A DNA stretch of 20,263 nt from a virus, in the IMG/VR virus record IMGVR_UViG_3300046001_008761, positions 1 to 20,263 of that record; one strand, given 5' to 3'. The position numbers and the translations under genes were made by a program. This document shows positions 2-15,382 of this stretch, in pieces (within the stretch, counting starts at the first letter, position 1; each line of letters starts with the position of its first letter). The notes beneath the pieces are model-generated. The model had not been told where the DNA came from. It searched no databases and was given only the letters and a program-made list of their open reading frames with translations.

Positions 2-262
2 AGTAATCTTGATAATTGGCAATTAAATCAACCTATATTTTTAAGAGACTTATATATTCTTTTGGATAAAATTAAAGGAGTTCAAACTGTAAAAAATATA
101 TCTATTGCAAATAAGGTTGGAACTTCAACAGGATATTCACAATATGCTTATGATATAGAGGGAGCTACCCAAAACCAAACAATTTATCCTTCATTAGATC
201 CTAGTATATTTGAAATTAGATACCCAAATTCAGACATAAAAGGTAAAGTAGTTCCTTTATAA
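2..262 (+). CDS. C-terminal end of a probable baseplate wedge protein (gp6/gpJ-like), 5' truncated
   Basis: The reading frame is open from the left edge to a TAA at 260-262, so only the last 86 residues are seen and the gene starts outside the window. The visible part has a helix (about residues 10-26 of the fragment) with DLYILLDKIKGVQTV followed by beta-type sequence and a short tail. The pattern of a helix, then 'GVQ.V', then strands near the C-terminus resembles the ends of baseplate J/T4 gp6-type wedge proteins. The call is supported mainly by context: a gpI/gp7-like gene follows three genes on, as in the J-I order of contractile-tail phages. The ATG-less TTG at 62 is an internal codon and not a start. 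A generic structural protein remains possible. Confidence 0.45.
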   Translation, partial: SNLDNWQLNQPIFLRDLYILLDKIKGVQTVKNISIANKVGTSTGYSQYAYDIEGATQNQTIYPSLDPSIFEIRYPNSDIKGKVVPL

Positions 263-288: not shown

Positions 289-1401
289 ATGGCTGTATAT
301 AAAATATTTCCTACCCAAGACGCTACATTATATTCCGCATATCCTACCATGAATACGGGGTTAGATGCTATCTTAGAAACATCTAATAAACTAGATATTA
401 GTGGAAACCCAGATGTAGCTAGATATTTAGTAAAATTTGATACCAATGAAATCATAGATATTATTAGTAATAAAATATCTGGAAACACATATGATATATA
501 TTTTAAAAATTTTATAGCAGAAGCTCAAGGAATTAATTTAGATACTTCTTTAGAAATATTACCTGTTGCTCAAAATTGGAATAATGGAACAGGATATACT
601 TTAGATTCCCCAATCATTAAAGATGGTTCATCTTGGGCGTATTCAAGTTACAGTGGATCTAATCCTTGGAATATGTCAGGCTCTGGATTTACAGGATCAT
701 ATAATGCAACTTATTCCCCCCAAGGAGGAGGTAACTTTTTTACAGGATCTATTTATAAAGTAACTCAATCCTTTGAATTACGTAGTGAAAAAGATATTGA
801 AGTAAATGTTAAAACTACAGTAAATGCTTGGTCTAGTTCAATACTTCCAAACTATGGATTTATAGTAAAATTAACAGGATCTCAAGAATTTAATCCAAGT
901 GAATATATTCAACCTCAATTTAAATACTATAGTGTTGACACAAATACAATTTATCCCCCATGTTTAGAATTTAGATGGAGAGACTACCAATCTGTACTAA
1001 CAGGATCACTAACCGGAAGTATAGTAACTACCTCAGACATTAAAATGTCTTTATCTCAAAATTCTGGTATATTTTATCCAACAAGTATAAATAAATTTAA
1101 CCTAAATGTAAGTCCTTTATACCCAAATCGTGTATATCAAACGTCTTCATTATTTACTAATTTAAATTATTTACCTACTTCTTCATATTATGCCATAAAA
1201 GACTTGGCTACCAATGAATTTGTTGTTAACTTTGATAATCAATACACCCAGATTAGTTCTGACTCAACAGGAAATTATTTTAGTGTTTATATGAGTGGCC
1301 TTGAACCAGAAAGATATTATAAAATTTTAATTAAAACTATAATTAATAGTTCAACATTAATATTTGATGATAATTATTATTTTAAAGTTATAAACGGATG
1401 A
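289..1401 (+). CDS. virion structural protein with DNRLRE-like N-terminal domain
   Basis: A 370-aa beta-rich protein, probably a baseplate or tail component at the cell-facing end of the particle. Residues about 4-55 (IFPTQDATLYSAYPTMNTGL, then a run ending in RYLVKFD) fit the start of DNRLRE-type beta-sandwich domains, in which an 'Asp-Ala-x-(V/L)-Y ... N-x-G' pattern precedes an 'R-x-L-(V/I)-x-F-D' strand. A Gly/Ser-rich stretch at about 115-155 and several Thr-Gly-Ser motifs follow. The middle (about 170-245) has Trp-rich beta sequence including CLEFRWRDYQ, and the C-terminal third reads like a fibronectin-like beta domain. The ATG at 289 is the first in frame after the preceding stop and has no Shine-Dalgarno sequence. 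The next gene overlaps the stop by 4 bases. The structural role comes from family resemblance and location; ligand binding is not shown. Confidence 0.7.
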   Translation: MAVYKIFPTQDATLYSAYPTMNTGLDAILETSNKLDISGNPDVARYLVKFDTNEIIDIISNKISGNTYDIYFKNFIAEAQGINLDTSLEILPVAQNWNNGTGYTLDSPIIKDGSSWAYSSYSGSNPWNMSGSGFTGSYNATYSPQGGGNFFTGSIYKVTQSFELRSEKDIEVNVKTTVNAWSSSILPNYGFIVKLTGSQEFNPSEYIQPQFKYYSVDTNTIYPPCLEFRWRDYQSVLTGSLTGSIVTTSDIKMSLSQNSGIFYPTSINKFNLNVSPLYPNRVYQTSSLFTNLNYLPTSSYYAIKDLATNEFVVNFDNQYTQISSDSTGNYFSVYMSGLEPERYYKILIKTIINSSTLIFDDNYYFKVING

Positions 1402-1829
1402 GTGAAAATATAGAATTAAATAAAAAAGTATATAGTAAAGCGGCATATGATCAAATAATTGATACTGATTTTAATCAATTAGGGATAAAACCTATTCAAA
1501 CTCAAATAGATACTCAACCAACTGTAAATGAATTTTTTGATTTATATAATGAATTATTTTATACTATTCCTGAATTAGGTGAAATTGATTCTCATGAATA
1601 TTTAATTACTAAAAGTAGTGAATATATTAATTTTTCTGCTAATCAAGATGAAATAATAGCTTTACAAAATGAAATATTTCAATTAAGAACAGAATTACTT
1701 GACACTCAAAAACAAAATATAGAATTACAAACCGGAGCACCACTTTCAAATTCTTCTAATATTGCTTCTCTTGAAGGCGGAATTTCTACAAGTGCAGGCG
1801 GAATTGCAAGTGGTGGAGGAGGCTATTAA
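1398..1829 (+). CDS. small coiled-coil virion protein with Gly-rich tail
   Basis: A 143-aa protein translationally coupled to the preceding gene by an ATGA overlap. Residues 1-80 contain VNEFFDLYNELFYTIPELGE and SHEYLI, a pattern I associate with small tail/baseplate proteins of marine T4-like phages. Residues about 83-112 form a predicted coiled coil with Leu/Ile heptads (EIIALQNEIFQLRTELLDTQ), suggesting an oligomer. Residues 127-143 are almost only Gly, Ser and Ala and end SGGGGY, which suggests a flexible terminal tail. Its place between two structural genes supports a virion role. The exact position in the particle cannot be told from sequence. Confidence 0.6.
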   Translation: MSENIELNKKVYSKAAYDQIIDTDFNQLGIKPIQTQIDTQPTVNEFFDLYNELFYTIPELGEIDSHEYLITKSSEYINFSANQDEIIALQNEIFQLRTELLDTQKQNIELQTGAPLSNSSNIASLEGGISTSAGGIASGGGGY

Positions 1830-1861: not shown

Positions 1862-4800
1862 ATGGCTGCAATAATTACTCCAATATTTTTACCTAATATA
1901 TCCCCTCAACAATATTCTATTGAAGAATCTAATTTAATTTCTTCTTTTCAAATAAATACTTCTTTAAATGAAGATAGTTATATTGAATATTATGTATTTG
2001 ATATTAATAATAATATTTTATCTTCAACATTAAATTTTACATCCTTTACAGTTCAAAATGATGGTCAATCTGTAGGAAGTAATGGATCTTTATCTAAAAT
2101 AATTATTGATCCTGAAAAAGATTTAATAGATTATGGATTTAGTGATGGAGAATATATATCATTTTATAATTTTTTAAATAAAAAAATTGGTTCAAATTTT
2201 GAGCAACTTTACATTTCTGAAATTTCTTCGGATAGAAAAGAAATAAGATTAAATAGTACATCTCTCACAGCATATGATATAATAAGTGCTACTGAAGATT
2301 TTATAATAGAAAGAGAATCATCTCCTTATTTTTTAGATTTTTATTTAAATTTTGGAGATAATAAATTATCAATAGCTAATAATATTGTATTAGATGATGA
2401 AAATCCTAATTCTCCTACTATTTTAATTAAACTTTACCAACCTCTTTTAGAGGAATTTAATATTAATAGCCTTTTATGGGTAGTTACATCTGTAGAAGAA
2501 CCTAGAATTTATAAAGTTACTTTTCCTTATGTACCTATTACTTTTACAGGAGACATTACTAAATCTTTATTACCAAATTTTAATTTAAATTTAAAAGATC
2601 AAGTAAATAATTCAACTTTAGAACTATCATATACTAATTTATTACTTACTTCTGTAACTAGCTCTGCTAACCAGTTAAATAGTTTACTTGAAGAAAAAGA
2701 AATAGATATAAATGTAGATTATACTAATTTTTCTAACTTTATTCATTTTAGTTCTGCACAAACACGACTTGAAAATTTTTATTCTAAAATAAAATTAATT
2801 GAAGAATATACATCTAATATTTCTATATTAAATACAATAACTACTTCTCCTGTAACAATTAATGAAAGCATATTAAATTATGAAAATAAAATAAATAGTA
2901 TTATAACTAATTTTGATGGATATGATTATTATTTATATTATGAAACTGGTTCAAAATCATGGCCTAAAACATCAACTTTTTTACCATATACTTTAGCTAA
3001 TTCTACTAGTGATCAAGTGTTATCATGGTTAGGTACTACAAACCCTTCTAGCCCTTTTTATGGTGGACAAATTTTATCTGCTTCTCTTTATGACAATGAC
3101 AACCAAAATAATCTATATTATTCTATCCCAGAATATCTAAGAGAAGATCCTGCAAATGATCCATATCAATTATTTATTGAAATGATAGGACAACATTACG
3201 ATAATATTTGGATATATTATAGAGATGTTACTCAAAAATATAATGCAGATAATCGTTTAGAAAATGGTATTTCAAAAGATATAGTAGCGGATGCAATTAG
3301 AGATTTTGGAATTAAATTATATCAAAATAATTTTTCAAACGAGGATTTATATACAGCATTTTTAGGTTTAACACCTGAAGGTGGTTTATTTCCATTTCCA
3401 AACATAACAGGATCTTTACCTACCCCTAGTGGGTACGAGTATATTAATACAAAAATATCTGCTTCAAATGATTATTTACCGTTAGATGACGTTAATAAAT
3501 CGTTATATAAACGCATATACCATAATTTACCATACCTATTGCAAACAAAAGGTACATTGCCTGGTTTGCGTGCACTTATTACCTCATATGGTATTCCTGA
3601 TACAATATTAAGGATTAATGAATATGGTGGAAAAGATAAAATAAATACAAATGATTGGGATTATTGGCAAAATGAATTTAATTATGCTTATAAACAAAAT
3701 GGAGATAATTTTATTTCCTCTAGTTTTGAATTAAATAGTGAATTTGATAGCCCTAAAACAGTAATGTTTAGGTTTAAAACTAATGGTTTACCAACCTCCT
3801 TAATTCCATATTCTCAAAGCTTATTTACTCTTCAAAATAGTTTTAACACCCCATCAGCTCATATAACTCTTCGTTATACCGGATCAGCTTATACTTCTGG
3901 TTCTTATAATGGTTCAATTATTGACCCATATTATCAACATGCCTATTTAGATTTTTATCCTAACTACACAAATTTCCCTACCTTAAGTGCTAGTATTTAT
4001 TTACCATTCTTTAATGGTAATTGGTGGTCAGTAATGGCTAAAAGAACAGGGACTGGAGGATCAACTAATTTTGAATTATACTCTGGAAATAAAATGTATG
4101 AGGGTGGTGAAAATGGAACCTCTATTGGATTTATAACTTCATCCTCCATTATTGTTAGCCCTACAGTATGGAATAATTCAATAACAGCACTTTTTGGTTC
4201 TGGATCAATTACTATAAGTTCTAATGTTAATGCTGGTATATACAATAAATTTTCTGGGTCTTTTCAAGAAATTAGATACTATAATGAACCTATAAGTGAA
4301 AGTGTATTTAAAGATTTTGTAATGAATCCTTCCTCAATTGAAGGAAACTCTATAAATTCTGGAGCAGATCAATTAGCTTTTAGATTACCTTTAGGGGGAG
4401 AATTATATACAGGATCAAATTCAATCCATCCAAAAGTTACGGGTTCATGGATTACTACTTCCTCTTTTGCCTCTGACAGTTCTGCTTATATTAATTCAAC
4501 ACCTACATTTATACCTAATACAGAATATTTTTATTACGATCAACCAATAGTAGGAATTAAAAATGCAATTGCTGATAAAATTAGAATAGAAAATAATGTG
4601 ATACCTGAGGGAGATATTTTATCTCCATTTATGTCTTTATCTCAACAAGCTAATATATCTCAAAGTTATACAGCAAACACAAATTTACTTGAGGTAGCAT
4701 TTTCACCACAAGATGAAATAAATGATGATATTAATTCCTCTCTCGGATATTTTAATATAGGAGAATATATTGGAGATCCAAGACTACGTTCTTCTTCTGC

Positions 4801-7800
4801 TGAATTTTACCCAGACTTAAATGCTTTAAGAGATTCATATTTTCAAAAATATACTAAAAATTATAATTTAGTTGATTTTGTTCGTTTAATTAAATTTTTT
4901 GACAATTCATTATTTAAAATGATAAAAGATTTTGTACCTGCTCGTACAAGTCTTGCTTCGGGAATTGTAATTAAACAACATATTTTAGAAAGAAATAAAG
5001 TTCCACAACCACAAGTTGATACTAATTCTCCTATAGCATATTATACTAGTGGATCTGTAAACAATCAACCACTAACATTCCAAGATATATCTGTTTCTGG
5101 TACATTATTACCTCAATGGAACGACTATAATGCTGGTACAGTAGAAAATTTTGATGGAGGTACTGCAGGAACATTTGAAATGTTTAATGGAACCGCTTTT
5201 GCTCCATCCGGCTCTAATATATTTAATTTAACACAAAGTTGGAGTGAATCATATAATTCTCCTTTAGGACTTGTAAATATAATTCATAATTCACAAGATG
5301 AATTTTATAATGGTGAATTTGAAGGTTCAGTTTTAACTGTAACTACTCAAAGTTTAAATTTACCCTTTCCAATAAGTAATGAAATATTTGACTATACTCC
5401 TGTAAGATATAGTCCACAAAATTATGATTTAAATACTACAAGTTCTTTTGCAGAGTCCCAATTTTTAAATGTATTAACAGTACCTGATCAAGGTGAAATT
5501 TTACTTTTAAGAGCTTACAGTAAACTTCAAAAAGATGGTAGTACTGGATTGTCCTCTCTATATGTAAAAATTCATAAAAAAGATAATAATGGATTTGATA
5601 ATTCTGTAACTTTAGGACAAGCTACTAGATTAAGAATTAAATACACTACTGAAATAGATTATTTAACTATTGGAGATATTTTAACAAAAACAGAATATCC
5701 AACATATTGGCTATATAAAGTTCAATCATTAGGTTCTAATACAGCAGATAATTATGTTGTAGATTATATGACCTCAGCTTCATTTACATCTTCAATATTT
5801 GAAGTTCCTTTTACTCTTAACCCAGCTATAGGAGGAAAACTTTTTCCTTATTATACAACCTCATCAAATAACCAATTTTTTAATCAAACTGATGGAATAT
5901 ATACTATTCCTTCCTCTCCATCTCGCACACCAAATATCGCTATTACTCTTTCAGCATCATTATTTATTAGTGGTTCCGTTGGTGGGAATTTTTATTTTAT
6001 GTTACTTAAACCAGGTCTTCCAGAATCAGAAGCTACATTTTTAATAGACCCATTTACTAATAATTTAATTCAAGGATCTTGGGAAGCTGGTGGTGAAGAT
6101 TTACCACCAACTTTTTTTGGAATAACTTCAGCTAGTGGAAAATTTATTCCAACTCCTGAAGATCGAATTTTTCTTGCTGTTACAAAAACTGGAGATATCC
6201 CATGTAGAGTTTTATCCGGCAGCTTTTTAGTTACTCAAAGTATAGCCCCTTCATCACAAAAAAATGATTTTGTTATAATTGAACCTTATATTACCAAACC
6301 TAATTTTTATAACAGCGATGACAATGCTCTTTTAAATAGCGTTAGTGATCAAAGAGAAAGTACTTTTGCTCTAGATGCCGATTATTCAGATGGAACAACT
6401 CCTATAAATTTTGCACTATTAGTTTCAGGAACTGCAACCCCAGCTACTGTACCTGATTCAAATTATACTTCTAAAAAATCAATACTCTCTAAATACGAGG
6501 GATCTAAATCAACTTCACAATTTTTAAATCAATGGACCCTAGGAGATACAGGAACATATGGTAAACTACCTACAGTAGAAAGTTTAAGAAATGCTTTTAT
6601 AATTGCGGGATGGATTGGAGGATGGCCCCCAGAAATTGAGGGAGCATCAGCAGCAAATATTAATTATATAGTTAGAGAAGATGGTACTTTAATTAAACCA
6701 TGGTCAACACCAAATGCACTATCAGATTTAAGACAATATTTTACCGATGGTGAAAAAGTAACTATATCTACATTAGAAAATATTCAATCATCAAATAAAA
6801 ATTATTATAAAATTCTTAAAAGTGGATATCAAGTTAAAAATATTTTATATACTCAAATAGGACAATCCCCCTCTCAAACATTTACAGCTTCTTTAAGTTT
6901 AGTAGATAAAGGAAATTCTGCTACATCTATTGTAGAAGATTATCAAATTAAAGTAGCATCTGACTGGTCATCACCAACACCTTGGTTAAATAATAGTATG
7001 ACTAGTACTTTTGAGGAAATAAATTTTCCTATACTATTAACCTCCGGATCATTTGCTAATATTCAAACTGTAACAAATCCTAGGAGATCCCCAGGTACGG
7101 GTAATACTACAAATACAAGATATTATGTTTCTCAATCTCTTGTAGATGATAAAGTAGATCTTACTTTTAATTTTAAGTTATTCTGGTCATATTTTCCCAA
7201 TAATGCTGCATATGCAATTTTATTAGCTAATAAAGAATTTAGACCCCCCGCCCCAACTTCTGTTAAAGTTTATTATCAATTAATAAGATTAAGAAATGGA
7301 TCTGAAACAATAATATATGATAATCCAAATGGGATAGAATTAAATAATCCCTCAACTCTTTCTGGGGGAACATTAAATATTTCTTATAAAGAAACATCAG
7401 ATTCTTTTACAGTTTTATCTACTAATTTAAAAAAAGATGATGTATTTTATTTAAAAGCTAAAGCAGTATTAAACGCTAACTCTCCTGAAGATCAATATAT
7501 GTATATTGAAGCTGGATCAGAATTAAATATTATTCAAAATCCAATTTCTAATCAAACTATTAGTATAGGAAATTTTTGGATATCTTCTTCTTATCTTCCA
7601 CTTACTGCTTTTTCTAATTCCTTTTCTAATGCCTTTTTTCAAACTTCATCAGTCTCTCTCTTTTCAGATCCTGTTTCCTTAAACCAAATTAACTCAGGTG
7701 GATTTGCTGGCACTAATATATTATATACTACATCTTCAGTTTTTAAAAATAATTTTGATAATAAATTTGCTTGGGGAAAAGATATTCCTAGTTCGGGTTT

Positions 7801-8155
7801 TAATACAATTGAAACTCATTGGGATATTATTCCAGGAGATGAATTTAAATTTGAAGGAAAAGAAAACCAAAGGTATAGAGTTCTTAAAGCAGGTATTGTT
7901 TCTTGTTCTGGATATGTTTCAAATTCAGTATTAGCTGTAGAATTTGATAGACCCTTACCAACATCAGGATCACTTAATTATGATAAATTTTCTATTCAAA
8001 GATATATTGATTTTGAAGGAAATTTAATTTTTGAAGGATTTAAACCTAGCGCAACTGGTCCATTTATTATTACACCAGAGTTTATAACTCCAAATTTAAA
8101 TAAAAATATAGGTAAGATTCTTGAAGATTTTACTTCAAAAGGTTTGCTTACATAA
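1862..8155 (+). CDS. giant baseplate protein with P2 gpI/T4 gp7-like core and LamG-like domain
   Basis: At 2097 aa this is about twice T4 gp7 and far longer than P2 gpI. Residues 1-420 are acidic and Asn-rich with no recognised fold. Residues about 424-595 read like a wedge core: DPYQLFIEMIGQHYDNIWIY, then a long helical stretch, then LLQTKGTLPGLRALITSYGI (from 559), matching the 'K-G-T ... l ... G' signature of the P2 gpI tail family. Residues about 619-830 have a LamG/concanavalin-like strand pattern, including WWSVMAKRTG and a closing FSGSFQEIRYY. Residues 1024-1034 carry FVPARTSLASG, followed by VIKQHILERNK, a block I recognise from large Bacteroidota and marine phage structural proteins. 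The rest is repetitive beta sequence with many Thr-Gly-Ser motifs. The partial gpJ-like gene upstream supports the wedge call. The frame is intact; the start is the ATG at 1862, without a Shine-Dalgarno sequence. Confidence 0.7.
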   Translation: MAAIITPIFLPNISPQQYSIEESNLISSFQINTSLNEDSYIEYYVFDINNNILSSTLNFTSFTVQNDGQSVGSNGSLSKIIIDPEKDLIDYGFSDGEYISFYNFLNKKIGSNFEQLYISEISSDRKEIRLNSTSLTAYDIISATEDFIIERESSPYFLDFYLNFGDNKLSIANNIVLDDENPNSPTILIKLYQPLLEEFNINSLLWVVTSVEEPRIYKVTFPYVPITFTGDITKSLLPNFNLNLKDQVNNSTLELSYTNLLLTSVTSSANQLNSLLEEKEIDINVDYTNFSNFIHFSSAQTRLENFYSKIKLIEEYTSNISILNTITTSPVTINESILNYENKINSIITNFDGYDYYLYYETGSKSWPKTSTFLPYTLANSTSDQVLSWLGTTNPSSPFYGGQILSASLYDNDNQNNLYYSIPEYLREDPANDPYQLFIEMIGQHYDNIWIYYRDVTQKYNADNRLENGISKDIVADAIRDFGIKLYQNNFSNEDLYTAFLGLTPEGGLFPFPNITGSLPTPSGYEYINTKISASNDYLPLDDVNKSLYKRIYHNLPYLLQTKGTLPGLRALITSYGIPDTILRINEYGGKDKINTNDWDYWQNEFNYAYKQNGDNFISSSFELNSEFDSPKTVMFRFKTNGLPTSLIPYSQSLFTLQNSFNTPSAHITLRYTGSAYTSGSYNGSIIDPYYQHAYLDFYPNYTNFPTLSASIYLPFFNGNWWSVMAKRTGTGGSTNFELYSGNKMYEGGENGTSIGFITSSSIIVSPTVWNNSITALFGSGSITISSNVNAGIYNKFSGSFQEIRYYNEPISESVFKDFVMNPSSIEGNSINSGADQLAFRLPLGGELYTGSNSIHPKVTGSWITTSSFASDSSAYINSTPTFIPNTEYFYYDQPIVGIKNAIADKIRIENNVIPEGDILSPFMSLSQQANISQSYTANTNLLEVAFSPQDEINDDINSSLGYFNIGEYIGDPRLRSSSAEFYPDLNALRDSYFQKYTKNYNLVDFVRLIKFFDNSLFKMIKDFVPARTSLASGIVIKQHILERNKVPQPQVDTNSPIAYYTSGSVNNQPLTFQDISVSGTLLPQWNDYNAGTVENFDGGTAGTFEMFNGTAFAPSGSNIFNLTQSWSESYNSPLGLVNIIHNSQDEFYNGEFEGSVLTVTTQSLNLPFPISNEIFDYTPVRYSPQNYDLNTTSSFAESQFLNVLTVPDQGEILLLRAYSKLQKDGSTGLSSLYVKIHKKDNNGFDNSVTLGQATRLRIKYTTEIDYLTIGDILTKTEYPTYWLYKVQSLGSNTADNYVVDYMTSASFTSSIFEVPFTLNPAIGGKLFPYYTTSSNNQFFNQTDGIYTIPSSPSRTPNIAITLSASLFISGSVGGNFYFMLLKPGLPESEATFLIDPFTNNLIQGSWEAGGEDLPPTFFGITSASGKFIPTPEDRIFLAVTKTGDIPCRVLSGSFLVTQSIAPSSQKNDFVIIEPYITKPNFYNSDDNALLNSVSDQRESTFALDADYSDGTTPINFALLVSGTATPATVPDSNYTSKKSILSKYEGSKSTSQFLNQWTLGDTGTYGKLPTVESLRNAFIIAGWIGGWPPEIEGASAANINYIVREDGTLIKPWSTPNALSDLRQYFTDGEKVTISTLENIQSSNKNYYKILKSGYQVKNILYTQIGQSPSQTFTASLSLVDKGNSATSIVEDYQIKVASDWSSPTPWLNNSMTSTFEEINFPILLTSGSFANIQTVTNPRRSPGTGNTTNTRYYVSQSLVDDKVDLTFNFKLFWSYFPNNAAYAILLANKEFRPPAPTSVKVYYQLIRLRNGSETIIYDNPNGIELNNPSTLSGGTLNISYKETSDSFTVLSTNLKKDDVFYLKAKAVLNANSPEDQYMYIEAGSELNIIQNPISNQTISIGNFWISSSYLPLTAFSNSFSNAFFQTSSVSLFSDPVSLNQINSGGFAGTNILYTTSSVFKNNFDNKFAWGKDIPSSGFNTIETHWDIIPGDEFKFEGKENQRYRVLKAGIVSCSGYVSNSVLAVEFDRPLPTSGSLNYDKFSIQRYIDFEGNLIFEGFKPSATGPFIITPEFITPNLNKNIGKILEDFTSKGLLT

Positions 8156-8867: not shown

Positions 8868-9887
8868 ATGTCATTTAAAAGATTAGACCCAGAAGATTTT
8901 TTAGTAAGTAGTGATTCAATTACCTCTACTATGTGGTCAACGGGTGTACCAACATTAACTTCTTTTTTTACTTCATCTACTCAAATTGCTTCATCTGCTG
9001 GTAGTTTTTATTATAGTGTTTATCAAACTGGATCGGGGGAATTAAATGCTGAAGTTCAATTTGATATAGCATATGGTGACTCTTTAGGAAGTGGAAGTGT
9101 CTTATACAATAGTTCAGTACCTGGAGTATCTCCAACAAAAACTATATATGGCCAATATCGTTCTTTAATTTTAGAGGATGAAAATTCATCTTTCATTTTT
9201 GGAAAAGGTAATAATACTTACACAACTAATAATTTTTGGGTAATAAATCTTGAAAGAGCAAGATATAAACAATCAATTTTTCCTGGATCATTAAATTTAG
9301 AACTTTCTGGATCTGGTGGGATTGGATCTATATATTTAACAGATGACTCATTAGATAATCCTGTATCTGAATTTTTAGGTTCAACTAGAGTATACCAATT
9401 AATTTCTGGATCTAATGGAACTGCAGGAACTTTAGCAAATAGTGGATATGTAGCCGGATCTGGTTCATATGGTTTAGTGTTCCCTGATTTAGGAACTATA
9501 TTAATTAATCCTGCTGCTGTATCTCAATCAATTAGATTATCTCCAAGTAGATCAAATAATTCTGATGGTTTAAATAATGCAAAATTATTTAATGCTATTT
9601 CTAAGGGTGCTCTCTTTACATTAAACTCCCAAGAAACACTTACTTCAGATTATGTTTTTGTTAGAGCACGCAATAGTGAATTTAATTACTCTGAAAATCC
9701 ATCATTTATTGCAGGTTCAACAGGTGAGGTAATTTATAGTCAATTTATTAATTCTCCTCAAGTATATCTTACTACTATAGGAATGTACAATGACAGTAAT
9801 GAATTAATAGCGGTGGCTAAAATGTCAAGACCATTATTAAAAGATTTTACAAAAGAAGCTTTAGTTAGAGTAAAATTAGACTTTTAG
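8868..9887 (+). CDS. virion structural protein, first of two tandem paralogues
   Basis: A 339-aa, Ser/Gly-rich, beta-type protein. Distinctive blocks are AEVQFDIAYGDSLGSGS (61-77), SPTKTIYGQYRSLIL (88-102), ERARYKQSIFPGSLNLELSG (129-148) and a C-terminal block from 270 on: SEFNYSENPSF, then YLTTIGMYNDSNELIAVAKM. The C-terminal block is shared with the next gene, so the two are paralogues or share a fused domain. I associate these blocks with tail/baseplate proteins of large marine phages of unknown detailed role. The gene follows its upstream neighbour by 10 bases and precedes the paralogue by 5, consistent with one late operon. A fibre or fibre-connector role is inference from context and composition. 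Confidence 0.65.
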   Translation: MSFKRLDPEDFLVSSDSITSTMWSTGVPTLTSFFTSSTQIASSAGSFYYSVYQTGSGELNAEVQFDIAYGDSLGSGSVLYNSSVPGVSPTKTIYGQYRSLILEDENSSFIFGKGNNTYTTNNFWVINLERARYKQSIFPGSLNLELSGSGGIGSIYLTDDSLDNPVSEFLGSTRVYQLISGSNGTAGTLANSGYVAGSGSYGLVFPDLGTILINPAAVSQSIRLSPSRSNNSDGLNNAKLFNAISKGALFTLNSQETLTSDYVFVRARNSEFNYSENPSFIAGSTGEVIYSQFINSPQVYLTTIGMYNDSNELIAVAKMSRPLLKDFTKEALVRVKLDF

Positions 9888-9892
9888 AATGA

Positions 9893-10885
9893 ATGAGCGT
9901 ATTCAAACCATTTACAACTTCAGATGTTATTGTTTCTCCTTTTAAGGTAAATAAATTATTTACTTTTACAGGAAACGAGCTTACAGGCTCAAACGTACAA
10001 ATTGATAGATTTCTTGGAAAAAATATTACAGCATCTTTATGGATATCTGGTTCAAATCCTACTGGGTATATTACATCCCAATCAAGCCAATTAGTATATC
10101 GTTCTATTAGAGAACTTTATTACTCTAATTATATTGGTGGAGATGATGGAGCTCCTGCAGCAACGGCTTCATTTAATAATGATGGAACAATAACAGGTTC
10201 TGTTTATACCCCAAATTACTATAACTATTTATCAAATACTTTACCTCCAAGTAGATATTTCCCAACAGGATCAAATGAAGCTATTACAGTAATTTCAATC
10301 CCCTCAAATTTATTTGGTGAATATTTAAAACCTGGATCTGTAAGCATTTCTACAGGAAGTATAAATTTACAAGATGATGGATTAGGCAATTTATTACATG
10401 GAGTTTTAAAAGTAGGAGATGTTATTTATGAACATGGAATAGTAATTATAACTAATAGTGGAATAACAGGATCACTAGATGGATATGGATATGTGCAATA
10501 TGGATCTACATTTTATGGGGGAGATGATTATGATTTTACAAATAATTTTTATAGTGGTTCATTAACTTGTTCATTTGAAAGTACAGTTACTATCTATGAG
10601 ACCCAATATAAATGCACTATTAGAGAAAATGAATTTAATTTTTCAAATAATCCTTCTCTACTTTCAGGATCAGTAGCTATAAGTAATGGTAGTGGTAGTT
10701 CATTCCCCCAACCAGGAAGTGGAAAATTAAACGATAACGTAACAGGTTCATATTTTTCCCCATATATTACAACTGTTGGATTATATAATAATAATAAAGA
10801 ATTATTAGCGGTAGCAAAACTTGCTCAACCGTTACCTGTATCCTCTGTTACAGACACATCAATATTAATAAACTTTGATTTTTAA
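9893..10885 (+). CDS. virion structural protein, second of two tandem paralogues
   Basis: A 330-aa protein related to its upstream neighbour. Shared features are a 'KPGSVSIS' segment (146-153) matching the neighbour's 'FPGSLNLELS', a following 'DDGLGNLL' matching 'DDSLDNPV', and the C-terminal block ENEFNFSNNPSLLSGS (245-260) and YITTVGLYNNNKELLAVAKL (291-310). The N-terminus (MSVFKPFTTSDVIVSPFKVN) differs from the neighbour and resembles N-terminal blocks of other marine phage structural proteins. GDVIYEHGIVIIT (175-187) is typical beta sequence. The start is the ATG at 9893; another ATG at 9889 is in a different frame. The product is probably a tail or baseplate component. The divergent N-termini with a common C-terminus suggest different docking sites and a common distal or trimerising part. 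Confidence 0.65.
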   Translation: MSVFKPFTTSDVIVSPFKVNKLFTFTGNELTGSNVQIDRFLGKNITASLWISGSNPTGYITSQSSQLVYRSIRELYYSNYIGGDDGAPAATASFNNDGTITGSVYTPNYYNYLSNTLPPSRYFPTGSNEAITVISIPSNLFGEYLKPGSVSISTGSINLQDDGLGNLLHGVLKVGDVIYEHGIVIITNSGITGSLDGYGYVQYGSTFYGGDDYDFTNNFYSGSLTCSFESTVTIYETQYKCTIRENEFNFSNNPSLLSGSVAISNGSGSSFPQPGSGKLNDNVTGSYFSPYITTVGLYNNNKELLAVAKLAQPLPVSSVTDTSILINFDF

Positions 10886-10890
10886 AATTT

Positions 10891-11349
10891 ATGTCAAATT
10901 GGTTATATAAAGATAAAAGAATACAAGACATAACAGATTTTCCCCAAGGAACCTATGGTTTTATTTATATTTCTGTTCATATCCCTACTGGTAAATCCTA
11001 TTTAGGTAAAAAATCTTTATATCACAATGTAAAGAAAAAACTAGGTAAAAAAGAATTAGCTGAACAACCTGTAACTAGAGGAAGAACATCTCTTACAAAA
11101 CAAATCATAAAAGAATCCGACTGGAAAACTTACTATGGCTCAGCAAAACCTATACTTGAACTTATAAAATTAGGAAAACAAAAAGATTTTGACCGTAAAA
11201 TTTTATGTGTTGTTCCAAATAAAAAATTATTGACATACTATGAATGTAAATATTTATTTAAATTAGGTGTTTTAGAAAATCCAAACGATTGGATAAATGA
11301 TAATATTTTAGGAAAGTTTTTTCGAAAAGACTTTGTTCCCCAAGATTAA
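10891..11349 (+). CDS. SegE-like GIY-YIG endonuclease
   Basis: A 152-aa protein fitting the SegE-like branch of the GIY-YIG nuclease superfamily, which cuts DNA and is often free-standing homing or exclusion machinery in T4-like phages. The GIY and YIG elements appear as FIY (24-26) and YLG (37-39), ten residues apart, in GFIYISVHIPTGKSYLGKK. Next comes ESDWKTYYGSAKPILELI (74-91), the conserved 'ESDW..YyGS' segment of the family, then a Lys/Arg-containing strand and TYYECKYLF, which supplies the candidate metal-binding Glu. Length is normal for a single nuclease domain; no separate DNA-binding domain is present. It sits exactly at the border between structural and replication genes, a typical place for a mobile nuclease, but its tight spacing (5 bases after the upstream gene) makes it look integrated in the operon. 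Confidence 0.8.
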   Translation: MSNWLYKDKRIQDITDFPQGTYGFIYISVHIPTGKSYLGKKSLYHNVKKKLGKKELAEQPVTRGRTSLTKQIIKESDWKTYYGSAKPILELIKLGKQKDFDRKILCVVPNKKLLTYYECKYLFKLGVLENPNDWINDNILGKFFRKDFVPQD

Positions 11350-13077: not shown

Positions 13078-13878
13078 ATGATAAGTCTTATCCAATTATT
13101 AAAGGAAGTGCAAGATAGTCCTAAAGCTATTATATTAGCGGGGGCACCAGGATCTGGAAAAGGAACTATTCTAAGAGATTTAAACTTAAGTAAATTTAAA
13201 ATTCTTAACATTGATGATACTATAGCAGCTTTATCAAAACAAGATCAATTTACACTAAACCAAAAAACAGCAGATTCCGAAGATAGAAGTAAATTTATGT
13301 CGGCAATGCAAACTGCTGCAAAACAATTAAAAACCCAAGATTTACCTCAAACTATATTAAATAAAGAATCATTTATTTTAGATGGTACGGCTTCATCTCC
13401 AAACCAAACTTTAAAACTAAAATCCCAACTTGAAGAAGCGGGATATAAAGTAATGATGTTATATGTTTATACTGAACTAGAAACATCTTTAAAACGCAAT
13501 GAAGAACGATTTGAAAAATCAGGTGGAGAAGATAGAAGTTTACTTCCTGGTGCTGTATTAGGAACATGGCTTATGGTAGCTAAAAATTTTCCTTTATATC
13601 AACAATTATTTGGTAATAACTTTGTATCTGTATCCAATACTGGTAATGAAGAAACATTAAAAGATATTGATCAAATTATTCAAAAGTATGTTACTCCATT
13701 TGATCCAAAAGATCCAAAACAAAAAACTGAAAAAGAACAAGAAAAATCTAATAAATTAAAAGAAAAATTAAATATAGAAATTCAAAATTTCCTTGATTCT
13801 AATCTAGCTCAAAATATTATAAACTCCTCTGTTTCCAAAGAAGAAGCTCAATCTAAAATAAATGAATTCATTAGTTAA
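13078..13878 (+). CDS. P-loop kinase, zeta-toxin-like, with capsid-targeting-like N-terminus
   Basis: A 266-aa protein. Walker A is GAPGSGKGT (22-30, K28). NIDD (44-47) is the likely substrate/metal-binding acidic element, FILDGT (99-104) is Walker-B-like, and LKRNEERF (138-145) supplies lid-type arginines. The layout fits small P-loop kinases related to zeta toxins and nucleotide kinases; the substrate is not identifiable. Residues 1-10 (MISLIQLLKE) form a short hydrophobic helix ending in L-K-E directly before the catalytic domain, a pattern repeated in several neighbours. Residues 208-266 are a highly charged, probably helical tail. The 3' end overlaps the next start by 17 bases. Zeta-type toxins act on UDP-sugars, but no antitoxin gene is seen nearby, so a toxin role is unproven. 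Confidence 0.7.
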   Translation: MISLIQLLKEVQDSPKAIILAGAPGSGKGTILRDLNLSKFKILNIDDTIAALSKQDQFTLNQKTADSEDRSKFMSAMQTAAKQLKTQDLPQTILNKESFILDGTASSPNQTLKLKSQLEEAGYKVMMLYVYTELETSLKRNEERFEKSGGEDRSLLPGAVLGTWLMVAKNFPLYQQLFGNNFVSVSNTGNEETLKDIDQIIQKYVTPFDPKDPKQKTEKEQEKSNKLKEKLNIEIQNFLDSNLAQNIINSSVSKEEAQSKINEFIS

Positions 13879-15382
13879 ATCACTTATATTTCCACTTTTA
13901 GAATCTGAACAAAAAGGTGTTGCTTTAATCCCTGGTGGTTTTAAACCCCCAACTATAGGACATTTTGTATTAGTTGATGAAGTAGCACAAAATCCAAATT
14001 TTGATAAAGTAATTGTTTTAATAGGCCATAAAATAAGAGATGGTGTAACTAAAGAAGAAAGTTTAGCAGTATGGGATATCTATAAAAAATACCTTCCCTC
14101 TAACGTTGAAATTAAAACTTCAGATAACTCTTCACCTATTGCAGATATTAGCTCACTTATAAAAAACAACCCATCCACATATTTTTACCCAGTAGTGGGT
14201 ATTAGAGGTGAAATGGATTTAGGTGATATAAAACGATTTGATAGTTTAGAAGGTAAATATCCTAACTTTAAAACAATAGTAATTAAAACAGAAGAAGGTA
14301 AAGATCGAGTTAGTGGAACAAAAACAAGAGCTGCTTTAATTAGTGGTGAAAAAGACAAATTTCAATCATATCTTCCAACTGAATTATCACAAGAAGAAAA
14401 AGATGGGATTTGGTCTATTTTAACTAAAACCCCACTAAATGAAATAAAGTATGCTGAACCTAGCAAATTTGATTATCCAAAACAACTAAAAGCACTTACT
14501 GAATTTATGTTAGATAAGGGAATGAATATTAAACCTTTACCTAAAGTAAAATTTATAGAAGATGATGTTGAAAATGCTAGGAATTTTTTTGGTAAAACGG
14601 CGTATTACGATCGGAATCAACGCGTTATAGTACTTTATACAATGGATCGTCATCCAAAAGACATTATGCGTTCATTTGCGCACGAAATGATTCACCACAT
14701 GCAAAACTGTGAAGATCGTTTAAATGGTATTTCTACTCAAGACACAAACGAAGAAGGTGATTTGCCTGAAATTGAAAGAGAAGCATATGAAAAAGGAAAT
14801 ATGACTTTCCGAAACTGGACAGATACATTAACTGAAGGTGTATTTGAAGATAGAATTGAATGTGATAATTGTGGGTGGAGTTGGAAAATAAAAGATGGTG
14901 GAGATGACTTATATGTTTGTCATAAGTGTGGTACTAATAATACACCTAAACCATTAAACGAAGAAAAAGAAGAGGATAATGGCACTTTATTATATAAAAG
15001 CATATTTAAACCAGATATAAACATATTAGTTGCTTTTGGAAATTATGAAAATTATAAAATTTTAAAACCTTTATTTAATAAATATGGATATGGTTTTTAT
15101 TCCCCAGAAGATAAAACAATAATTCTTAATGGTGAACGTTTTATAAATTCTAATTTAGATTTTAGGGATTTTAAATTTGTTGAAGCACACGAAATAACCC
15201 ATTTACTTTTAGGACATACAGGACCATATTCTGAAGAAGATGAAATGGATGCTGATTTAGGAGCATATATTTTATTAAAAAATAAAAAGTTATCAACAGA
15301 TAGACTTGTAAACGAATTTGAAAATAGACATGGTGTACCATTTACTGAAGAATTACTTGAACGAGTAAAAAATAGGTTGTAA
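13862..15382 (+). CDS. four-module fusion: nucleotidyltransferase, zincin, zinc ribbon, second ImmA-like zincin
   Basis: A 506-aa protein with four recognisable modules. (1) Residues 19-190 are a cytidylyltransferase/NMNAT-like fold: GGFKPPTIGHF (25-35) gives the (H/T)-x-G-H motif as T31-I-G-H34, and SGTKTRAAL (151-159) is the C-terminal substrate-binding loop. (2) Residues about 196-320 form a zincin: AHEMIHHMQN (H274, E275, H278), with a candidate third ligand in EIEREAYE (303-310). (3) Residues 334-357 form a zinc ribbon, C334-x2-C337 and C353-x2-C356. (4) Residues about 375-506 form a second zincin with HEITHLLLGH (H443, E444, H447) and EMDADLGA, the arrangement of ImmA/IrrE-type peptidases. 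L-x-E tripeptides lie at the borders: LLE 12-14, LNE 192-194, LTE 323-325 and LNE 365-367. No frameshift is visible. Possibly a polyprotein; the nucleotide substrate and protease targets are unknown. Confidence 0.75.
   Translation: MNSLVKSLIFPLLESEQKGVALIPGGFKPPTIGHFVLVDEVAQNPNFDKVIVLIGHKIRDGVTKEESLAVWDIYKKYLPSNVEIKTSDNSSPIADISSLIKNNPSTYFYPVVGIRGEMDLGDIKRFDSLEGKYPNFKTIVIKTEEGKDRVSGTKTRAALISGEKDKFQSYLPTELSQEEKDGIWSILTKTPLNEIKYAEPSKFDYPKQLKALTEFMLDKGMNIKPLPKVKFIEDDVENARNFFGKTAYYDRNQRVIVLYTMDRHPKDIMRSFAHEMIHHMQNCEDRLNGISTQDTNEEGDLPEIEREAYEKGNMTFRNWTDTLTEGVFEDRIECDNCGWSWKIKDGGDDLYVCHKCGTNNTPKPLNEEKEEDNGTLLYKSIFKPDINILVAFGNYENYKILKPLFNKYGYGFYSPEDKTIILNGERFINSNLDFRDFKFVEAHEITHLLLGHTGPYSEEDEMDADLGAYILLKNKKLSTDRLVNEFENRHGVPFTEELLERVKNRL

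Follow-up and report, generated by a model that had tools for sequence, protein, structure and literature searches.

The window analyzed in this study, a virus record of 20,263 bases (IMG/VR record IMGVR_UViG_3300046001_008761, positions 1 to 20,263), contained an open reading frame (ORF) on the plus strand at positions 1862-8155 encoding a protein of 2097 amino acids (aa), as proposed in an earlier note on this DNA. The same arrangement was open in 74 complete rows of the fused type (i.e., with the whole chain in a single gene), which ranged from 1438 to 3093 aa with a median of 1996.5 aa and included the copy of the window itself (L003). Therefore, ORF 1862-8155 is no chance reading frame. 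Zero family matches were found for the whole protein (P0001) in Pfam and PHROGs at E 0.01. The protein contained the following modules:

1862..8155, plus strand: whole ORF, a putative modular wedge/adhesin protein of 2097 aa (ORF call, relatives)
1862..2527, plus strand: N-terminal domain predicted to be beta, residues 1-222 (AF2 pLDDT 77-90 over most of residues 41-222, with a dip at 61-80; 58% identity over residues 36-222)
2528..3073, plus strand: helical linker, residues 223-404 (AF2 secondary structure, hairpin 299-324/330-349; 59% identity)
3074..3667, plus strand: first half of the core, residues 405-602 (85% identity; motif KRIYHN...KGT...EYGG at residues 550-590 aligned to P2 gpI)
3674..4540, plus strand: LamG/pentraxin-like domain inside the core, residues 605-893 (predicted model; 147 of 150 ORFs)
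4568..5041, plus strand: second half of the core, residues 903-1060 (75% identity over residues 896-1060)
5084..5371, plus strand: conserved module M1, residues 1075-1170 (close to where the wedge gene of split relatives stops)
5465..5560, plus strand: fusion junction, residues 1202-1233 (stop, spacer, and new ATG here in split relatives)
5756..6247, plus strand: first predicted C1q/TNF-like jelly roll, residues 1299-1462 (Z 14.1, root-mean-square deviation (rmsd) 2.0, 123 residues aligned to 4oul)
6224..6961, plus strand: conserved module M2, residues 1455-1700 (includes residues 1481-1571)
6938..7552, plus strand: second predicted C1q/TNF-like jelly roll, residues 1693-1897, hypervariable (1jtz, RANKL, Z 12.7, rmsd 3.0, 142 residues aligned)
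7733..8152, plus strand: conserved C-terminal module (Cend), residues 1958-2097 (39% identity; hidden Markov model (HMM) matches in fused and split relatives)

Six records of the phage collection matched the protein (four immuto records, Microcystis phage Mel-JY01, and LR756508). Two overlapping scans of IMG/VR confirmed 146 and 142 stretches, respectively, and a third confirmed at least 569. Three relatives were also found in bacterial genomes, namely in three metagenome-assembled genomes, one of which is labelled Winogradskyella. The protein therefore represents a large family, frequent in IMG/VR, that has no Pfam or PHROG name. De-duplication of the scans left 154 loci in which the first core block was present, including that of the window. 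Alignments A1 and A3 omitted near-identical rows (>95%; 54 of 58 kept) and L052 (placed in A4), and the identity and entropy figures for segments are means over 50 other sequences in A3; alignment A5 consisted of 31 rows picked for diversity. Fold searches of the predicted models gave lists that were each dominated by one domain, with the N-terminal domain, M1, M2, and Cend hardly probed. In the viral structure library, the first half of the protein retrieved uncharacterised phage proteins as top rows, and the second half a mixture of phage tail proteins and others.

Residues 405-602 formed the most conserved segment measured (entropy 0.43), and the wedge core signature placed by the earlier note at approximately residues 424-595 does lie in a strongly conserved region. 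The core is not limited to that region, however, because conservation resumed at approximately residues 903-1060, past the LamG-like domain, which itself showed 56% identity. Between the two core blocks lie 15 residues in immuto, compared with 271-370 in the other 149 ORFs holding both. Since the conserved core resumes behind the LamG-like domain and the blocks are so close in immuto, this domain is an insertion between them. The module sat in this position in 147 of 150 ORFs; the exceptions were immuto and the two records Mel-JY01 and LR756508, which carry inserts of 293 and 370 residues at the same place with weak matches to the LamG profile (E 1.6e-5 and 0.0018; N-terminal controls 0.31 and 0.93). 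The insertion is probably old, and its lack in immuto suggests that LamG is dispensable to the core.

The AF2 model of residues 605-893 resembled PAPP-A (Z 18.0, rmsd 4.3, 213 residues aligned by VIA-align, with interior patches at pLDDT <50) and the putative carbohydrate-binding protein 4dqa of Bacteroides (Z 16.4, rmsd 4.0, 205 residues aligned), followed by pentraxins and the LG domains of laminin and neurexin (best Foldseek E 2.9e-7). The predicted structure thus agrees with a LamG or concanavalin A-like sandwich and with the earlier claim that a LamG-like domain directly follows the first core block. The same note described more than 1200 beta-rich residues behind LamG. The chain is predicted to be beta-rich from approximately residue 1170, including the two jelly rolls, whereas residues 903-1060 were helical in the AF2 model (helices 951-960, 984-998, and 1003-1024, low pLDDT) and residues 1481-1571 were left without a prediction. 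This last stretch (positions 6302-6574) showed 59% identity and an entropy of 1.12, and may be an interface folding together with a partner.

Comparison with related phages, suggested in the earlier note as a check on domain gain or loss, revealed two gene organizations in addition to the LamG-less form of immuto. Among the 118 rows in which the state was scored, 85 were fused and 33 were split (28 more were unscored, being truncated or without a detected M2). Because a gene of its own encodes the C-terminal part in 33 of the 118 scored rows, one gene here does work that other phages give to two. In 23 of the 33 split loci, the alignment of the second ORF began no more than 14 residues from its first Met and fell at residues 1221-1234, with stop-to-start gaps of 2-33 nucleotides (nt); several of these ORFs start with MAxGVxYIK, and many have an A-rich leader. 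The other 10 comprised immuto, L218, L221, L235, L236, L254, L258, L259, and L305, which have another architecture, and L074, probably a broken contig. Complete wedge ORFs were present in 32 split loci (median 1254.5 aa).

On a quick maximum-likelihood tree of 146 of the 154 loci (those with complete core blocks; 347 columns; 28 of the 146 without a state), the fused and split states needed at least 11 changes. Many inner branches of this tree are weak, long-branch warnings were raised for immuto, Mel-JY01, and LR756508, and the direction of change was not inferred; well-supported branches alone still gave at least nine changes of the split label, with unscored rows treated as non-split. Closest to the outgroup among the scored rows were immuto and L256, both split, at an unresolved fork. 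Frameshifts or spurious stops arising in assembly could also produce apparent split forms, and a few loci do look broken (L074, with a 208-nt gap, and L243, with overlapping ORFs split inside LamG). Nevertheless, 23 of the 33 split loci begin anew from an ATG at one homologous position, and the cultured phage immuto is also split, which renders such an artefact very improbable. The family also included giant versions of 2920-3093 aa (L232, L234, L242, L244, and L245), with approximately 930-1170 residues between M1 and M2 compared with approximately 285 in the window, and a split locus (L217) with a wedge ORF of 2039 aa, in which approximately 880 residues separate the second core block from M1.

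The C-terminal region was modelled as a monomer with a mean pLDDT of 71.7 and a pTM of 0.46 (residues 1070-2097). A lower match of the first jelly roll was the central spike of phage phi812 (Z 13.0), and RANKL alone, among the 50 matches listed, covered residues 1693-1897 cleanly. These results indicate that both heads are predicted C1q/TNF-type jelly rolls. They were also the most variable well-filled regions of the protein, with identities of 21% and 14% and entropies of 2.28 and 2.65 for the first and second head, respectively. Variable linkers occurred at residues 1171-1233 (26%, entropy 2.25) and 1898-1957 (6%, mostly gaps), and the entropy of Cend was 1.35. Membership in a tail-fibre family, judged by family matches, found no support in the whole protein (E 0.01) or in the second ORF of the split relative L080, for which scans of Pfam and PHROGs gave zero tail-fibre family or other matches at E 0.05.

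To compare close relatives, 62 of the 85 fused rows (all modules present, M1 and M2 at least 100 residues apart) were used, giving 24 pairs with core identity of at least 93%; these pairs share members and are not independent. Median identities were 84% for the N-terminus, 95% for the core, 78% for LamG, 81% for M1, 44% for head 1, 71% for M2, 29% for head 2, and 53% for the C-terminus. The head-2 region was the lowest of the eight segments in 20 of the 24 pairs; head 2 was 84% identical in L009/L069 and 62% identical in L232/L234. For four pairs, DNA identity was also followed along the gene in intervals of 50 codons. That of L018/L020 was 77-98% outside head 2 (one interval at 69%), ran through 69, 50, 42, 54, and 66% across this region, and returned to 83-90%; in L019/L028, it was 79-100% outside, 61, 44, and 50% across, and then 83-89%. 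In both pairs, identity was mostly near 90% and values below 60% were confined to the head-2 region, and the flanking DNA was 90% identical in the upstream 1.5 kb of both and 94% (2.5 kb) and 90% (316 nt) identical downstream. The pairs L006/L079 and L006/L012 showed the same drop at head 2, together with lower stretches in LamG and head 1. Identity that drops and recovers in this manner is the pattern expected for an exchanged host-recognition domain of phage adhesins. Localised hypervariability between conserved flanks, a hallmark sought in receptor-binding proteins, was thus present, and head 2 differs between close relatives like a cassette. Head 2 is the likely specificity determinant.

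The genes upstream bear on the role of the core. A longer contig with an identical protein (L005) gave the order gp25-like gene (PF04965, E 4.8e-8), gp6-like gene, 370-aa gene, 143-aa gene, and large gene, and the window contained these parts of it:

2..262, plus strand: gp6-like baseplate wedge gene, 3' end (more of it in L005:2644-4500, with the gp25-like gene ahead)
289..1401, plus strand: 370-aa neighbour, syntenic in relatives (ORF call and comparison)
1398..1829, plus strand: 143-aa neighbour, syntenic in relatives (ORF call and comparison)

The complete gp6-like wedge protein is 618 aa and matched phrog_219 (E 2.1e-10) and phrog_10646 (E 2.5e-14). Gene order in immuto, in which genes for baseplate assembly and the wedge are annotated, matched that of L005. 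In both, the large gene follows the gp25-like and gp6/J-type genes, as a gpI/gp7-type gene does, but with two genes between.

In addition, the first core block showed motif-level similarity to gpI. The gpI profile was built from P2 and 13 diverse sequences from named phages (relatives of P2 gpI from viral_contigs, at 99-100% identity, were unusable), and the motif was defined from these gpI sequences, 9 of 14 of which have an exact KGT. With hhalign, the first block (A5) aligned to this profile with the KGT motif in register at a score of 25.7 (E 0.0036). Column shuffling gave a score this high in 2 of 500 trials, including an outlier of 133, and the reversed profile scored 12.2. A larger alignment of the block scored 22.8, with 1 of 150 shuffles as high. 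By comparison, the gpI profile scored 10.9-14.4 against seven other segments of the protein and 11.8-16.2 against five neighbour families, the latter scored without shuffles, which were run for segments of the large protein only. The core alignments were shallow (Neff 2.1 and 2.5).

Several results weigh against placing this core in a wedge. The hhalign probability of the gpI alignment was 9%, and the second core block had no similarity to the gpI profile (12.1, with 47 of 150 shuffles as high). The HMM of PF09684 (Tail_P2_I / gpI) gave 0 matches at E<=10 in the records of 6 relatives and was absent from the Pfam results of 31 core sequences at E<=1; hits of these sequences in Pfam and PHROGs were scattered, mostly single-member rows (best Pfam E 0.0035, one member), none of them relevant. 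Searches of the core against PDB sequences and profiles likewise returned nothing relevant, with isolated rows at E 0.19 and 1.4. Scores of the core against T4 gp7 were 14.7 and 18.3 compared with 15.5-21.9 for the neighbours, a comparison in which the gp7 and gpI profiles also scored low against each other (16.7). Segment-wise structure prediction, suggested earlier as a check, gave an AF2 pLDDT of approximately 30 over residues 432-601; low confidence in the most conserved parts could reflect folding only with partners. C1q/TNF heads are usually trimeric, which fits poorly with the single copy per wedge of the gpI/gp7 counterpart in Vibrio phage XM1. Furthermore, the record of relative L028 encodes two YadA-head proteins and one protein with a tail-fibre family match. 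Finally, in complete fused rows, the downstream slot flanked by the 330-aa and GIY-YIG genes showed no length correlation with the protein (rho -0.09, p 0.52, n=53).

Because support from PF09684, Pfam, PHROGs, and PDB is missing, T4 gp7 was not recognised, and pLDDT is approximately 30, we do not file the core as a gpI/gp7 (Tail_P2_I) member, although it probably works like one. The earlier reading as a gpI/gp7-like wedge core is thus backed by the motif-level profile alignment and gene order but not by a family HMM match or by recognition of gp7. On balance, we favor with moderate confidence the view that this protein is a wedge scaffold of the gpI/gp7-like kind, to which exchangeable adhesin heads are covalently fused, in the baseplate of a contractile phage. 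It might instead be a peripheral appendage or tail-fibre protein whose core is a distinct type of baseplate-docking domain, the true gpI/gp7 being another, unrecognised gene. The missing family match, the failure of AF2 to yield a core fold, the C1q/TNF-type heads, and the two genes separating the gp6-like gene from the large gene would all suit such an appendage. However, the core ranked first among six locus families against gpI (25.7 vs 11.8-16.2), its 85% conservation exceeds what we would expect of a fibre, and immuto keeps the core without LamG, and we regard the appendage as rather unlikely.

As a wedge scaffold, the protein would be a structural subunit of a contractile phage baseplate. 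The core (residues 405-602 and 903-1060, probably with the preceding helical hairpin) would act like gpI/gp7, which contributes one copy to the wedge heterotrimer, beside the gp6-like and gp25-like subunits encoded just upstream; in the model, hairpin 299-324/330-349 is a possible core-bundle hairpin. The LamG/pentraxin-like domain inside the core would likely touch envelope polysaccharide, and the C-terminal part (approximately residues 1234-2097) would form an adhesin arm with the two C1q/TNF-like heads around M2, ahead of Cend. A receptor-bound head may then pull through the covalent chain on the wedge core and help to trigger the baseplate. The earlier idea of a wedge and a host-surface appendage in one chain is consistent with the wedge-like core joined to appendage-type domains, the arm that is a separate gene in the split rows, and the cassette-like jelly rolls, but a gpI/gp7 fold of the core did not emerge. 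The suggestion that the protein does work split among several T4 genes was too specific: the core and five neighbours gave a best E of 0.08 against single T4 gp6, gp8, gp9, gp10, and gp53 sequences (hhalign), and candidate separate fibres occur in a relative.

Known systems offer partial parallels. Flavobacterium phage immuto (NC_055915) has the same core and gene order and an M2 match in the next gene, but its gp109 is 1265 aa without the LamG insert, and its M2-bearing part is a separate 403-aa gene (gp108). P2 gpI shares the KGT-type motif and the place after gp25/W- and gp6/J-type genes. In Vibrio phage XM1, gp17 is described as the gpI/gp7 counterpart, one per wedge, with six spikes held by an internal loop and six by the C-terminus (PMC10457771), and peripheral parts would similarly hang from a loop and the C-terminus here. 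Unlike the present protein, gpI and gp17 are 176 and 242 aa, the XM1 spikes are separate proteins, and the family HMM match is missing here. For A-1(L), a C-terminal loop of gp32 is described as contacting the long fibre (PMC10966104); the internal insertion and the C-terminus of our protein may correspond to these attachment places, here with covalent binding domains. T4 gp7 lies right after gp6 in the wedge operon and is large compared with gpI (1032 aa), but without detectable profile similarity. Bacillus phage Vp4 Gp119 (baseplate wedge 3) is likewise a wedge protein enlarged by carbohydrate-binding modules (CBMs): it has CBM folds and decorates Bacillus cereus cells, and the CBM-less Deep-Blue Gp177 does not (PMC11406892). 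It differs in being 831 aa and another wedge protein (A511 gp105 type), and the passages on it report no C1q/TNF arm. In myocyanophage Pam3, the TNF-like and glycine-rich domains of tail fibre gp24 are described as responsible for receptor recognition (PMC9608196); gp24 shares the TNF-like head but is, in this account, a separate trimeric fibre unjoined to the wedge. A paper on Pseudomonas phage K8 treats host range and variants of a putative wedge protein (PMC9887876).

The C-terminal arm could also be a docking platform for separate fibres, with heads that vary by co-change with exchanged fibres. As noted above, the C-terminal parts of XM1 gp17 and A-1(L) gp32 hold spikes or fibres, and the YadA-head and fibre-family genes of L028 are candidate separate fibres. 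Yet the 2.5 kb downstream of the gene is 94% identical in L018/L020 despite different heads (fibre genes elsewhere in the genomes lie outside this comparison), and a similar jelly roll takes part in receptor recognition in Pam3 gp24. In immuto, the slot between the 330-aa and GIY-YIG genes holds four genes, three annotated as fibre or spike, whereas it holds none in the window and was <=30 nt in 58 of 77 loci (42 of 56 fused and 13 of 18 split loci, together with the window, L005, and L002, whose assignment is doubtful). We therefore consider a docking platform unlikely. The idea that the fused arm replaces fibre genes in this slot was dropped, as the slot is short in fused and split loci alike and its length does not follow that of the protein, and that of a sole adhesin was rejected in view of the YadA-head and fibre-family genes of L028. 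The 166-kb record of L028 also contained a tail-sheath gene (phrog_23, E 2.2e-70); therefore, L028 is presumably contractile. In one relative, two adjacent genes (L344:16587-18287 and the next gene of G003; 567 and 588 aa) had sheath-like starts, and the first was confirmed as a tail sheath.

Downstream, the window contained genes of 339 and 330 aa (8868-9887 and 9893-10885), which are likely paralogues because their homologue sets are equally large (196 matches each). A GIY-YIG (SegE-type) endonuclease gene (10891-11349) directly follows the baseplate genes; the PHROG label of its family, 'NAD synthetase', recurs at the matching immuto gene and is probably a misnomer. Additionally, we found a Zeta-toxin/polynucleotide-kinase-like P-loop protein (13078-13878; PF06414, E 1.6e-17) and a 506-aa ORF (13862-15382) with an N-terminal cytidyltransferase-type match and a C-terminal metallo-protease family match.

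Among the matches listed in the open-licence literature, no earlier wedge protein with LamG or C1q/TNF heads was found, nor did these matches include a useful paper on immuto or Mel-JY01. The present results add a LamG-like domain inside the core, recurrent fusion/fission at one junction, and a cassette-like jelly-roll head. More tentatively, a receptor-binding head may be part of the wedge polypeptide itself, with one chain per wedge running from a sheath-proximal core to an exchangeable TNF/C1q-like head and shaped by repeated fusion/fission and cassette swaps; if so, receptor engagement would pull the wedge directly without a fibre joint. If the wedge-scaffold reading is true, an exchangeable adhesin head is placed on the wedge scaffold and not on a separate fibre, and the fused, split, LamG-bearing, and LamG-less relatives would provide a natural series on the transmission of signals from receptor to baseplate. 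These results also propose a role for a large family that lacks a Pfam or PHROG name.

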